This document shows, piece after piece, positions 1 through 4,070 of a stretch of 64,000 nt of DNA. The notes beneath the pieces were generated by a model. That model was not told the DNA's origin and made no database searches. It worked only from the letters and a program-made list of their open reading frames with translations. The stretch lies in assembly GCF_002087085.1 (NCBI RefSeq), contig NZ_MWQY01000004.1, forward strand, positions 1-64,000, in the 5' to 3' direction. The stretch's first letter is position 1. Each line of letters opens with the position of its first letter. This stretch comes from Marispirochaeta aestuarii. Lineage in GTDB: Bacteria; Spirochaetota; Spirochaetia; JC444; Marispirochaetaceae. Both the position numbers and the translations under genes were made by a program.

Positions 1-167
1 ATAACATCCAATTGAGCTGTGTGGCGTTAAGCTGGCATGTGTTTGTGCTGCAACTCTTATACATTCTACTACGATTTCTACCCGGAATCACATGAAATAT
101 TCAGTCACCTGGTTTACCTACTGCACAAACCATGACAGTAGCCACATCTGCTCCAATTGCTGGTTAT
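1..167 (-). repeat. attC recombination site 1 (integron)
   Basis: This 167 bp element starts with ATAAC and ends with GTTAT, which are reverse complements. Inside them lie imperfectly paired boxes (CAATTGAGC on the left, GCTCCAATTG on the right, leaving one unpaired C), then further pairing of GTGTGGC with GCCACAT and of GCATGTGTTTGTGC with GCACAAACCATG. A long imperfect hairpin with extra-helical bases is the hallmark of integron attC sites, which recombine as folded single strands. It differs from the copy at 1176-1342 at only three positions. It closes the cassette lying at 168-1175 and begins at the window edge, so more array is expected to the left. Confidence 0.85.
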
Positions 168-182
168 GTTCTACATCACATC

Positions 183-812
183 CTATAATTTTTTCCATTC
201 AGCAAACTTTTCCCGTGGATCATTGCTTAGCGCATAAACTTTTACACCTTTAAACTGTTTTAATTGGTGATGATCTAATGGGATATCTGAAAAATAGTTT
301 AAATAAAGATCCAGCATGTTATTTTCTTTAAGTATACCTACTGCACTTATGTAAGTTCCATGGTTTTCTGTGAGTCGTCTATCAGAACCAAATCGTTTTA
401 TTATGTTCCCAGTTTTATCAAGAGTTCGGTGTTCGATACCATACATTCCTGTTTTTATTTCATATTCGCTTAGAATACTAACTTGAGAGGAACGATTATC
501 GTGGATGATGATAATTGATGGATATTTATTTGCACAATATTTCCTTAACTGAACGCTGCCTTCCTTTATCTTTTGACGAATTCTATTCCCAGGTTTTGAA
601 TTCCCCCAGACTGCAAAGTCATTTTCAGATAATTCATTTATTGCACTTTTCTCATCTGGATTTGTCTCTAGATCTTTTATCTCAATGTATATCAAATTAT
701 CATTCAAATATATTAAAAAGTCAGGAGACTTATCTTTTCCTTCAACTATTCTTTCATATCGAATATTTAAAATCGAGCATAAGTTAATGAATTCATACTC
801 TCCATTAGTCAT
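183..812 (-). CDS. PD-(D/E)XK nuclease-like cassette protein
   Basis: This 209-residue cassette-borne protein has no assigned function. The segment SPDFLIYLND followed by IYIEIKD gives Asp31 and Glu44-x-Lys46, the spacing of the catalytic core of the PD-(D/E)XK nuclease superfamily (D...ExK), so a metal-dependent nuclease or a restriction-endonuclease-like fold is inferred. The rest is a mix of strands and charged helices without signal peptide or membrane segment. Its ATG overlaps the stop of the upstream 105-residue gene by 4 bp, so the two are translationally coupled and probably act together. The DNA is clearly more AT-rich than the chromosomal backbone to the right. It could belong to an anti-phage or addiction system; the function is unproven. 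Confidence 0.7.
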   Translation of the reverse strand: MTNGEYEFINLCSILNIRYERIVEGKDKSPDFLIYLNDNLIYIEIKDLETNPDEKSAINELSENDFAVWGNSKPGNRIRQKIKEGSVQLRKYCANKYPSIIIIHDNRSSQVSILSEYEIKTGMYGIEHRTLDKTGNIIKRFGSDRRLTENHGTYISAVGILKENNMLDLYLNYFSDIPLDHHQLKQFKGVKVYALSNDPREKFAEWKKL

Positions 813-1126
813 TTTCTTTTTAATTTCTCTAATCTTTCAATTAATTGATTTGGTTTTTTACCTGGTGAATGTCTTTGCTTTGAAAATCTTTCTAGAATCT
901 CAATTTCTTTGTCGATCATTTTTTGCTTCTTAAATACCGTTGCTAATTTTTCATAATACCAAGGTGCCACACCAAATTTCTCTATTTTATCTTCAGATTC
1001 AGTTGCTTCAACTAAATTCCATAGTAGCTTCTCCGCATCGTCAAGTCTATTTTCAGCGATCATTTGTTTTACATCATCTGCATATTCAGTGTAATGTTTC
1101 CCTTTAAAAATACCCGGCTTTTTCAT
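809..1126 (-). CDS. small TPR-like helical protein, partner of the nuclease-like gene
   Basis: This 105-residue protein is strongly helical and charged. The stretch around residues 54-81 (APWYYEKLATVFKKQKM, then EIEILERF) resembles a tetratricopeptide helix pair, and the C-terminus is Lys/Arg-rich. It is the first gene of the cassette, with an AGGATGG ribosome-binding site just upstream of its ATG. Its stop overlaps the start of the nuclease-like gene by 4 bp. Small TPR-like proteins beside nuclease-like proteins can be regulators, antitoxins or scaffolds; which of these applies here is unknown. No catalytic motif was seen. Confidence 0.65.
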   Translation of the reverse strand: MKKPGIFKGKHYTEYADDVKQMIAENRLDDAEKLLWNLVEATESEDKIEKFGVAPWYYEKLATVFKKQKMIDKEIEILERFSKQRHSPGKKPNQLIERLEKLKRK

Positions 1127-1175
1127 TTAACCATCCTATAATTCATAATTTTAATCAAATTTATTTTGTATGAAC

Positions 1176-1342
1176 ATAACATCCAATTGAGCTGTGTGGC
1201 GTTAAGCTGGCATGTGTTTGTGCTGCAACTCTTATACATTCTACTACGATTTCTACCCGGAATAACCTGAAATATTCAGTCACCTGGTTTACCTACTGCT
1301 CAAACCATGACAGTAGCCACATCTGCTCCAATTGCTGGTTAT
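1176..1342 (-). repeat. attC recombination site 2 (integron)
   Basis: This is the second 167 bp attC, nearly identical to the copy at 1-167 (three substitutions, all in the right half). It has ATAAC/GTTAT end boxes, CAATTGAGC against GCTCCAATTG inner boxes with an unpaired C, and long imperfect internal pairing. In the cassette reading direction (- strand) it lies just downstream of the antitoxin stop and closes the toxin-antitoxin cassette. Near-identity of attC sites within one array is typical of large sedentary chromosomal integrons. Confidence 0.87.
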
Positions 1343-1650
1343 ATTGCCCTCTCTTCCTTCAGCAGCCTGAACGACTTAATGATCTCATCCTTCTCAAATA
1401 GCTGATTTGTAATGTATTTATGAAGCACCGTTGTAATAAGCGTTTGGTACGGTAACCCTTCCTGTTCTGCCTTCTCTTTTAGTTTTTCTAAATCATAATT
1501 TGAAATTCTTAGGCTTATCGCCTTATTTTTCTTGGCTCCAGCTATTATGGATTCGACCTTCTTTCTCTTTTCACCTGTGACGGATCGATAGGTGTCAATT
1601 TCATTTTCTATTTTCTTCTCTTCAGCAGTAAGGTTATATCTTCGTTTCAT
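1339..1650 (-). CDS. ribbon-helix-helix (CopG/BrnA-like) antitoxin
   Basis: This 103-residue protein starts one base after the toxin stop. The segment at about 45-81 (AISLRISNYDLEKLKEKA, then LPYQTLITTVLHKYI) is the classic beta-strand/helix/helix of CopG-type DNA-binding antitoxins, with alternating residues in the strand for DNA contact. The N-terminal 40 residues are charged and helical. In this family the protein neutralises the cognate toxin and represses the shared promoter. Its C-terminal codons run to the edge of attC site 2. Placing the antitoxin second in the operon is usual for BrnT/BrnA-type modules. Such modules often occur in large chromosomal integrons, where they are thought to stabilise the array. 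Confidence 0.8.
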   Translation of the reverse strand: MKRRYNLTAEEKKIENEIDTYRSVTGEKRKKVESIIAGAKKNKAISLRISNYDLEKLKEKAEQEGLPYQTLITTVLHKYITNQLFEKDEIIKSFRLLKEERAI

Positions 1651-1651
1651 A

Positions 1652-1918
1652 TCATTTCCTTCGATATTTCTTGTGGTATTTTCGACTCTGATAGGCAGTC
1701 TTCAATACGATATTATCATCCTCATCTATTATGAATGGGACAATCCACGTATAGTCTTGTATTTCCATCACAAAATACATCTGCCCCTCACGTACTGGAT
1801 TCTCAATAATATCCATGTACATTCCATCCATAATCATCTGACTTATTTCATCAAAAGAGATATTTCTCTCTAAAATGAGTTTTTCATTTTTTTCTTTATC
1901 CCAGATGATGGAATTCAT
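1652..1918 (-). CDS. BrnT-like toxin of a type II toxin-antitoxin pair
   Basis: This 88-residue protein begins with IIWDKEKNEKL, then ISFDEISQMI, and ends with a basic tail (YQSRKYHKKYRRK). This matches the general plan of BrnT/RelE-like RNase toxins, in which a WD-x-x-KN opening and a C-terminal strand plus basic tail form the active surface. The adjoining RHH protein supports the assignment. The ATG lies at the expected transcription start of a consensus promoter, so the message may be leaderless. The exact toxin family is less certain than the toxin-antitoxin pairing itself. Confidence 0.72.
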   Translation of the reverse strand: MNSIIWDKEKNEKLILERNISFDEISQMIMDGMYMDIIENPVREGQMYFVMEIQDYTWIVPFIIDEDDNIVLKTAYQSRKYHKKYRRK

Positions 1919-2247: not shown

Positions 2248-2414
2248 ATAACACCCAGTTGAGCTGCAAACCGTTAAGCTGGCGCAGTTTGTGCCTCAAT
2301 CGTAAACAGTATAACTCCACTTATAATCAAGAACAATCGAAAACTATTGTTCCCCATTTTCACGAGCCTGCACAAACTGTGACAGTAGGTTTGTCTGCTC
2401 CAACTGCAGGTTAT
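2248..2414 (-). repeat. attC recombination site 3 (closest to the integrase)
   Basis: This is a third attC of exactly the same length (167 bp) as the other two but clearly diverged. Its ends are ATAAC and GTTAT, with inner boxes CAGTTGAGC against GCTCCAACTG, so substitutions are compensated across the stem (AATTG has become AGTTG on one side and CAACT on the other). The apical part carries a 22 bp palindrome (GAACAAT, 8 bp, ATTGTTC at 2331-2352) that the other two lack. Compensatory change supports selection on the folded structure. Confidence 0.82.
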
Positions 2415-2825
2415 ACTGCGCTGATCCCCCAGGCAGAAGAACCATTTTTCGAACCATGAGGAGAATTTCCATCGAACACCGAAAAATAGTCTCAAAGGAA
2501 AAGTGCGTTTGGCCGTAGCGTGGCCATTAATTGCGTTGGGTTGCGTGCAGGCCTTTGCGTGGCTGCGTGGCCAGGCGTTGGCCAGCGATAGGCCTTAGTG
2601 TAATCTCGATAAACTTTCGTTATCGAATTCCCTCTTCCTTTCCTTCTTCGAAGTCCCCAAAAAAGTGTCTGTATAACATATTCTACCCACTACTTTTGTC
2701 CTATTTTAACCTCTTATCATCTGAATGCGCAATTATTTTACAAAAACGGCGTTCAAAGTAAAAGCATTCAACATTAGCTATGGTTTTAAACAATAGAAAC
2801 TATTGTTCTCCGGAGGTCAATATCA
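2415..2825. other. integrase-proximal region with candidate attI and a GC-rich segment
   Basis: No convincing gene is present in these roughly 410 bases. On the - strand GTTATAC occurs at 2677-2671, matching the GTTAT(A/G)T end boxes of the three attC sites, so this is the best candidate for the attI insertion point. If so, the segment from there to 2248 would be a small cassette without an obvious gene. A GC-rich stretch at about 2503-2605 repeats GCGTGGC and TGGCC motifs and is compositionally unlike its AT-rich surroundings. The promoter of the integrase must lie near 2740-2790 but no consensus pair was certain. Confidence 0.45.
2789..2807. promoter_or_regulatory. palindromic candidate operator before the integrase gene
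   Basis: AACAATAG, AAA, CTATTGTT is a perfect 8 bp inverted repeat with a 3 bp spacer. It ends five bases before the GGAGG ribosome-binding site (2812-2816) of the integrase gene. Position and symmetry fit a repressor site or a translational hairpin. Related sequences (GAACAAT, 8 bp, ATTGTTC) occur at 2331-2352 and 4188-4209. It does not match the well-known LexA boxes that control many other integron integrases. Confidence 0.5.
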
Positions 2826-4070
2826 ATGGACCAGGAAGTGTACGGTCGATACATTAATTATCTCCAGAAATATCATAAGATAAAAGAGAATCACCTTTCC
2901 TGGTACCTCCATTGGGTAAAGAAATATATCAACTATTGGAATAACGATAAGAACTACCTCAAGGACGACTCAATCCGGAGATATTTTCAATTCCTTGCAG
3001 ACCGGTATGAACCATGGCAGGTAGAGCAGGCTGCCGCGGCGATTCGTCTTTTTGTTCATTACATGAACAAAATGGAAAATAGCGCAAAACTACAGAAACC
3101 GGGGAATTGGCCGGAGGTTCTGGATAAGATGAAGTCTGAGCTCAGGGTGCAGAGCAAGTCGTATAGAACAGAGAAAACCTACCTCTACTGGGTCCGCGAT
3201 TTTTCCCGATGGCGCAACCCTAAAAACCCGGATCAACTTGGATCTGACGATGTCCGCGCTTACCTCACCCATCTTTCAATCAACCGTAACATATCCTTTG
3301 CAACTCAGAAACAGGCTTTTATCGCTTTACTGTTTTTATTCCGTCATGTTTTAAATATAGAGATAAATGGCCTCGAATCAGTGGTCCGAGCCAGAGTAAA
3401 TAGAAAACTCCCTGTCGTTCTTTCTCCATCCGAGATATCAGGGATCTTACAATATGTGCCTGAAGAATACCGTCTGATGTGCCGCATTATCTATGGGGGC
3501 GGACTTCGACTTTCAGAATGTCTGGAATTAAGAGTAAAAGATGTCGATATCGACGGCGGATCAATCATTATCCGTTCTGGTAAAGGTAATAAAGATCGCC
3601 TGACCTTACTCTCACGGTCGGTGATTCCGGATTTACAGAAGCACATTGTAAAAGTCAGACAGTTATACGAGTCTGATCGCCTTGAAAAATTGCCAGGTGT
3701 ACCTCTGCCTTTTGCATTGCAAAAGAAGTACCCTCAGGCATCTACGGAATGGAACTGGTTCTGGATCTTCCCTTCCCCCCGGTTTTCGGTGTGTCCGCGG
3801 ACCAATCAGCCAGGCAGGTTCCATGTGTTTCCATCAACTCTGCAGCACGCCTTTCATGAAGCGCTGAGAAAATCCGGAATCCCAAAGAAAGCAGGCATCC
3901 ATACCCTGCGACATAGTTTTGCGACACACCTGATAGAGGCAGGTTATGATATAAGAACAGTACAGGAACTGCTCGGCCATTCGAACCTAAGTACAACAAT
4001 GATCTATACCCACGTAGCCACAAAGAATAAGCTCAGTGTAATCAGTCCCATGGACAAAATGGACATCTGA
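2826..4070 (+). CDS. intI: integron integrase (IntI-family tyrosine recombinase)
   Basis: This 414-residue enzyme inserts and excises gene cassettes by attC x attI recombination. The tyrosine-recombinase residues are Arg228 (GGLRLSECL), Lys253 (SGKGNKDR), His359 and Arg362 (HTLRHSFATHL), His385 (ELLGH) and nucleophile Tyr394 (TMIYTH). Decisive for IntI rather than XerC/D is the extra segment at about 292-345, with FALQKKYPQASTEW, NWFWIFPS and a tail resembling the IntI-specific helix that grips folded attC. The ending SPMDKM also resembles IntI1. Known IntI proteins are about 320-350 residues; here some 90 residues precede the usual start and look like a second core-binding-type helical domain. 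The gene has a strong GGAGG site 9 bp before ATG and is divergent from the cassettes, the canonical layout. Confidence 0.93.
   Translation: MDQEVYGRYINYLQKYHKIKENHLSWYLHWVKKYINYWNNDKNYLKDDSIRRYFQFLADRYEPWQVEQAAAAIRLFVHYMNKMENSAKLQKPGNWPEVLDKMKSELRVQSKSYRTEKTYLYWVRDFSRWRNPKNPDQLGSDDVRAYLTHLSINRNISFATQKQAFIALLFLFRHVLNIEINGLESVVRARVNRKLPVVLSPSEISGILQYVPEEYRLMCRIIYGGGLRLSECLELRVKDVDIDGGSIIIRSGKGNKDRLTLLSRSVIPDLQKHIVKVRQLYESDRLEKLPGVPLPFALQKKYPQASTEWNWFWIFPSPRFSVCPRTNQPGRFHVFPSTLQHAFHEALRKSGIPKKAGIHTLRHSFATHLIEAGYDIRTVQELLGHSNLSTTMIYTHVATKNKLSVISPMDKMDI

Follow-up and report, generated by a model that had tools for sequence, protein, structure and literature searches.

Marispirochaeta aestuarii carries, in the cassette array of its chromosomal integron, a genuine, conserved and unnamed two-gene cassette that couples a probable PD-(D/E)XK-type nuclease (P0001) to a predicted tetratricopeptide repeat (TPR) protein (P0002). 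On balance, we slightly favor the view that this cassette is a compact, horizontally moved anti-invader module made of a nuclease and a TPR adaptor. Small nuclease-based integron defense cassettes are already a known kind, and the recurring TPR adaptor family is a broader and more interesting lead than the cassette itself.

The window (the whole stretch of 64,000 nucleotides that was analyzed) begins at base 1 of contig C4, and the cassette array occupies its positions 1-2422. The features of the array and of the adjoining integrase are as follows:

About 1-170, minus strand: attC at the 3' end of the cassette, clipped by the contig start; 98% identity to the second copy, folding z -2.79.
183-812, minus strand: P0001, 209 amino acids, ATG start; probable PD-(D/E)XK-type nuclease with a full-length homologue at L061 5395-6048.
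809-1126, minus strand: P0002, 105 amino acids, ATG start; adaptor-like protein predicted to adopt a TPR fold; signature G-V-A-P-W-Y-Y.
1127-1179, minus strand: cassette leader with a ribosome-binding-like AGGATGG, read directly.
1174-1347, minus strand: attC of the preceding BrnA/BrnT-like cassette, from the repeat copy and its folding.
1339-1918, minus strand: neighboring BrnT/BrnA-like toxin-antitoxin two-gene cassette (BrnT_toxin, E 5e-6; CopG_antitoxin, E 2.5e-7).
2826-4070, plus strand: integron integrase, divergent from the cassettes (TIGR02249, E 6e-121, 404 bits against a cut-off of 265).

Delimited by its core sites (G^TTATGT, read directly), the whole cassette lies on the minus strand at 5-1179. 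A first-pass annotation had placed a cassette at 168-1175; the cassette is there, but its core sites set slightly wider bounds. It is bounded by two attC copies of ~170 bp each (1-170 and 1176-1345), which are 98% identical and spaced 1175 bp apart. As single strands, both copies fold more stably than almost every shuffled sequence (z -2.8 and -2.0), and 18 attC-like matches are distributed across five contigs of the genome. The integrase is the sole TIGR02249 match above cut-off genome-wide. Flanked by attC sites and close to an integron integrase, the element is an integron gene cassette. Its GC content is 31%, compared with 53% for the window, which suggests a foreign origin. We also observe ~95 additional N-terminal residues ahead of the TIGR02249 match in the integrase. 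In the Treponema integron, the integrase arrangement differs from the divergent one seen here (PMC3607928).

Both genes are minus-strand ORFs lying between the attC copies. P0002 is the first gene, is preceded by the Shine-Dalgarno-like AGGATGG, and shares 4 bp (ATGA) with P0001, in keeping with the earlier description of two coupled genes in one cassette. In both genes, substitutions relative to their homologues fall mostly at third codon positions. Because of this excess, and because full-length homologues keep this gene order in another genome, P0001 and P0002 are, on sequence comparison, real genes rather than chance ORFs.

That other genome, G447, is from the same class but another family. 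Across residues 1-208, its P0001 homologue (L061 5395-6048) has 39% identity (E 8e-47), and a P0002 orthologue (51% identity) lies directly upstream with an 8-bp overlap. G447 has a genuine integron integrase, and its pair lies behind an attC-like element with strong folding (z -4.6); a weaker attC-like palindrome after the pair is not significant (z -0.6). Between the two genomes, attC sites are unlike in both length and sequence. This suggests that the cassette pair was recruited separately in each.

Homologues of P0001 (E < 1e-10) occur in 2 of 395 genomes of the class, and the TPR profile is matched in 6 of 395. Both P0001-type genes (2/2) have a TPR gene directly upstream, so the co-occurrence on which the first-pass annotation had staked its proposal is conserved, as judged from two instances of the exact pair in all and one full-length P0001 relative. 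Two genomes of the same genus lack P0001. Thus, the module is accessory. No P0001 relatives were found in plasmids and phages by tblastn, with either P0001 or its G447 homologue as query, or in genome and viral contigs by exact-peptide scans. A scan with the two-sequence alignment returned no further relative, and neither did an alignment built on a degenerate pattern with three synthetic motif-keeping variants, included to loosen that pattern. Weak matches in G396, G128, G532 and G294 were read as chance, being short and, in two cases, interrupted by stops.

P0001 carries the signature D31...E44-x-K46 (E44-I-K46). The residue numbers given earlier for Glu44 and Lys46 are correct, and D31 precedes them. 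All three residues, and Q88 further along, are shared with the G447 homologue, in a comparison of two sequences only, and their order is that expected of PD-(D/E)XK enzymes. The D-X(n)-(D/E)-X-K signature is thus present and conserved across the two proteins, together with flanking residues. An AlphaFold2 (AF2) single-sequence model is unreliable (pLDDT 38); its order of elements (helix 3-14, strands 18-22, 31-36 and 39-44, helix 86-96, strand 100-105) is compatible with an alpha-beta-beta-beta-alpha-beta core.

In its signature and, as far as this model goes, in the order of its elements, P0001 resembles the PD-(D/E)XK superfamily. It differs in that neither profiles nor fold comparison tie it to a member family, and its C-terminal half (about 110-209) is without a known counterpart. 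We found no convincing match to any known nuclease in Pfam, NCBIfam, PADLOC or the PDB, and hhalign comparisons with the nucleases in hand gave probabilities of ≤1%, the same as controls. In PADLOC-DB 2.0.0, the best hits were partial for both P0001 (E 0.0016, 15 bits) and P0002 (E 0.018), and their homologues matched none of the models. Matches of GapS1 (E 0.08) and DUF6483 (E 0.005) were rejected as falling under curated cut-offs; a match of HEC-02B (E 0.004) was rejected as partial and of 15 bits. We therefore read P0001 as probably a PD-(D/E)XK-type nuclease on the strength of its motif, given the missing profile match and the pLDDT of 38. The nuclease proposed in the first-pass annotation accordingly has the support of the conserved D/ExK residues, and that of neither a profile nor a fold model. 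The description of the pair as an undescribed system agrees with our searches, which gave no named match within Pfam, NCBIfam, PHROGs or PADLOC.

P0002 can be confidently modeled as a TPR-fold protein. Its AF2 model, built from a six-sequence alignment, has a pLDDT of 88.1 and comprises five helices that form two hairpins and a cap. Nearly all of its top Foldseek neighbors in the PDB are TPR proteins (probability ~0.99, TM 0.55-0.63, E >0.1). The model and these neighbors bear out the small, helical, TPR-like first protein of the original description. P0002 thus shares with TPR proteins a predicted pair of helical hairpins and a capping helix. It differs from them in that its TPR profile scores are only weak and its GVAPWYY signature is missed by Pfam.

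Relatives of P0002 are found on haloarchaeal, actinobacterial and gammaproteobacterial plasmids, in viral-collection contigs and, within the class, in a few genomes. Fusions of the family domain join it to Mrr_cat (two haloarchaea), to a DnaQ-like exonuclease (L048 and L051, both viral-collection contigs), to HIRAN (L004) and to TerD (L046). The haloarchaeal plasmid Mrr-type enzymes resemble the cassette in joining a nuclease to the same TPR family, there as a C-terminal P0002-like domain, and differ in being one fused protein with another nuclease family. In G007, a P0002-family gene overlaps a Hjc-like nuclease gene by 4 bp. In Neptuniibacter, such a gene lies 31 bp behind one for an orphan ELK-motif protein, a putative nuclease judged by its motif. 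Some members are solitary. Since members may be solitary or fused to TerD or HIRAN, the link of the family to nucleases is a tendency and no rule.

Several further arrangements of the family were noted. In L009, a P0002-family protein is joined to a DUF2510 protein containing a stretch that reads as Vsr-like, though no Pfam model bears this out. In L052 (2998-3201) and L062 (2781-3300), a stop-decayed P0002-family gene is flanked, by eye, by a SIR2-like gene and by one whose product has an STYxDLxxER motif in its N-terminal part. In L050 (1325-3282), the genes ahead of a P0002-family gene resemble, by eye, DprA and a phosphoribosyltransferase.

A wider and more tentative reading, which we hold to be possible though rather doubtful as a whole, is that P0002 represents an undescribed, portable "GVAPWYY" TPR adaptor family. 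Archaea and bacteria would attach it, in cis or as a neighboring gene, to nucleases of many unrelated kinds (Mrr, DnaQ, Hjc-like and P0001-type), each of which would then respond to a common partner or infection signal. The cassette would then be its minimal mobile form, and P0001 a new nuclease family.

The genomic company of the cassette bears on its function. Three other cassettes of the same genome are as follows:

L032 132-1672 (contig C30): two-gene cassette in which a gene for a GmrSD_N protein (NsnA/PD-T4-2_A, E 3e-69 and 4e-58) overlaps a HEPN gene.
L031 176-2496 (contig C17): HNH endonuclease and type II D12 methylase in one cassette.
L029 7153-8160 (contig C8): another candidate nuclease gene in a cassette, its product having a D/ExK-like motif and resembling Cas4/PDC-M15A weakly (E 4e-4 to 1e-3).

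Further cassettes encode SoFic, FitA/PIN-like (FitAB-like) genes and a Gp49/HTH pair. Two genes in one cassette had been taken as exceptional; they are not so in this genome, where at least five other cassettes hold functionally linked genes. The multi-gene cassettes are mainly conflict systems (toxin-antitoxin, restriction-modification, and PD-T4-2-like), and this association supports a defense reading of the pair. The PD-T4-2/NsnA-type cassette on C30 is alike in format, with two genes that overlap within a single cassette of this integron; its GmrSD_N and HEPN components are unrelated to P0001 and P0002. Integrons are established stores of defense genes, and ~10% of Vibrio cholerae integron cassettes gave anti-phage activity (review PMC12409362). 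The integron arrays of this genome also contain a cassette-like element without a convincing gene, in at least four copies that are 85-99% identical (window 2401-2678; L029 6277-6554 and 6702-6979; L030 49-310).

An addiction function was the other half of the original proposal. As a type II toxin-antitoxin module, the cassette would stabilize the array, with P0001 as a toxic nuclease and P0002, made first, as its antitoxin. The gene order, small size and 4-bp overlap are typical of such modules, the adjoining cassette is BrnT/BrnA-like, and other cassettes are also toxin-antitoxin modules. The pair thus shares with BrnT/BrnA-type modules a small first gene, an overlapping second gene and an integron cassette. 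It differs from them in both proteins: P0002 is TPR throughout, profile searches, the AF2 model and Foldseek having revealed no DNA-binding domain in it, and P0001 has no match to a toxin family. Furthermore, relatives of P0002 form one polypeptide with Mrr or DnaQ enzymes, unlike a neutralizing partner. A TPR family that is joined in this way to several nucleases of unrelated kinds is better explained as an adaptor or accessory domain than as an antitoxin. These fusions weaken the addiction half of the proposal, and we regard a toxin-antitoxin function as unlikely.

A restriction-like enzyme appears less likely still. Here, P0001 and a TPR specificity or regulatory subunit would cut according to modification status, in the manner of type IV systems, or in concert with a methylase encoded elsewhere. 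Mrr, a modification-dependent type of nuclease, is indeed fused to the same TPR domain, and the cassette preceding the pair in G447 encodes a D12 DNA methylase, with the attC-like element lying between. Against this, the cassette itself contains no cognate methyltransferase, and searches of P0001 gave no known type IV domain. The G447 methylase is 67% identical to the home-genome methylase of L031, which is already paired with its own HNH partner in another cassette. It was rejected as a restriction-modification partner for this reason, and also because the ORFs before it read as a transposase remnant.

It is improbable that the pair is a housekeeping or repair system, an accessory DNA-processing nuclease on a TPR scaffold as in FAN1 (a TPR plus VRR nuclease): HIRAN and DnaQ domains, to which some relatives of P0002 are joined, are found in proteins of DNA replication and repair, and FAN1 stands at rank 36 among the structural neighbors of P0002, but many other TPR proteins outscore it, and P0001 is rare, sporadic (2/395), absent from the two same-genus genomes, low in GC and cassette-borne.

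We return to the anti-invader module as the preferred reading. Under this model, P0001 would be a PD-(D/E)XK-type DNase in which D31, E44 and K46 coordinate metal. P0002, as a TPR adaptor of two hairpins that is translated before P0001 and coupled to it, would bind the nuclease and recruit, position or gate it on a target or an infection signal. We infer the nuclease fold and activity, the interaction of P0001 with P0002, and the anti-phage or anti-plasmid role. A metal-dependent nuclease with P0002 as its binding partner is likely, and defense against phage or plasmid DNA is plausible.

If this reading is right, the cassette would be a nuclease system of two genes, as yet unnamed and compact enough to move as a single integron cassette. 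Its TPR domain would recur across Bacteria and Archaea beside unrelated nucleases, raising the idea that one adaptor family licenses many nucleases in defense. It would also suggest that the integron of an uncharacterized lineage may serve as a defense store outside Vibrio.
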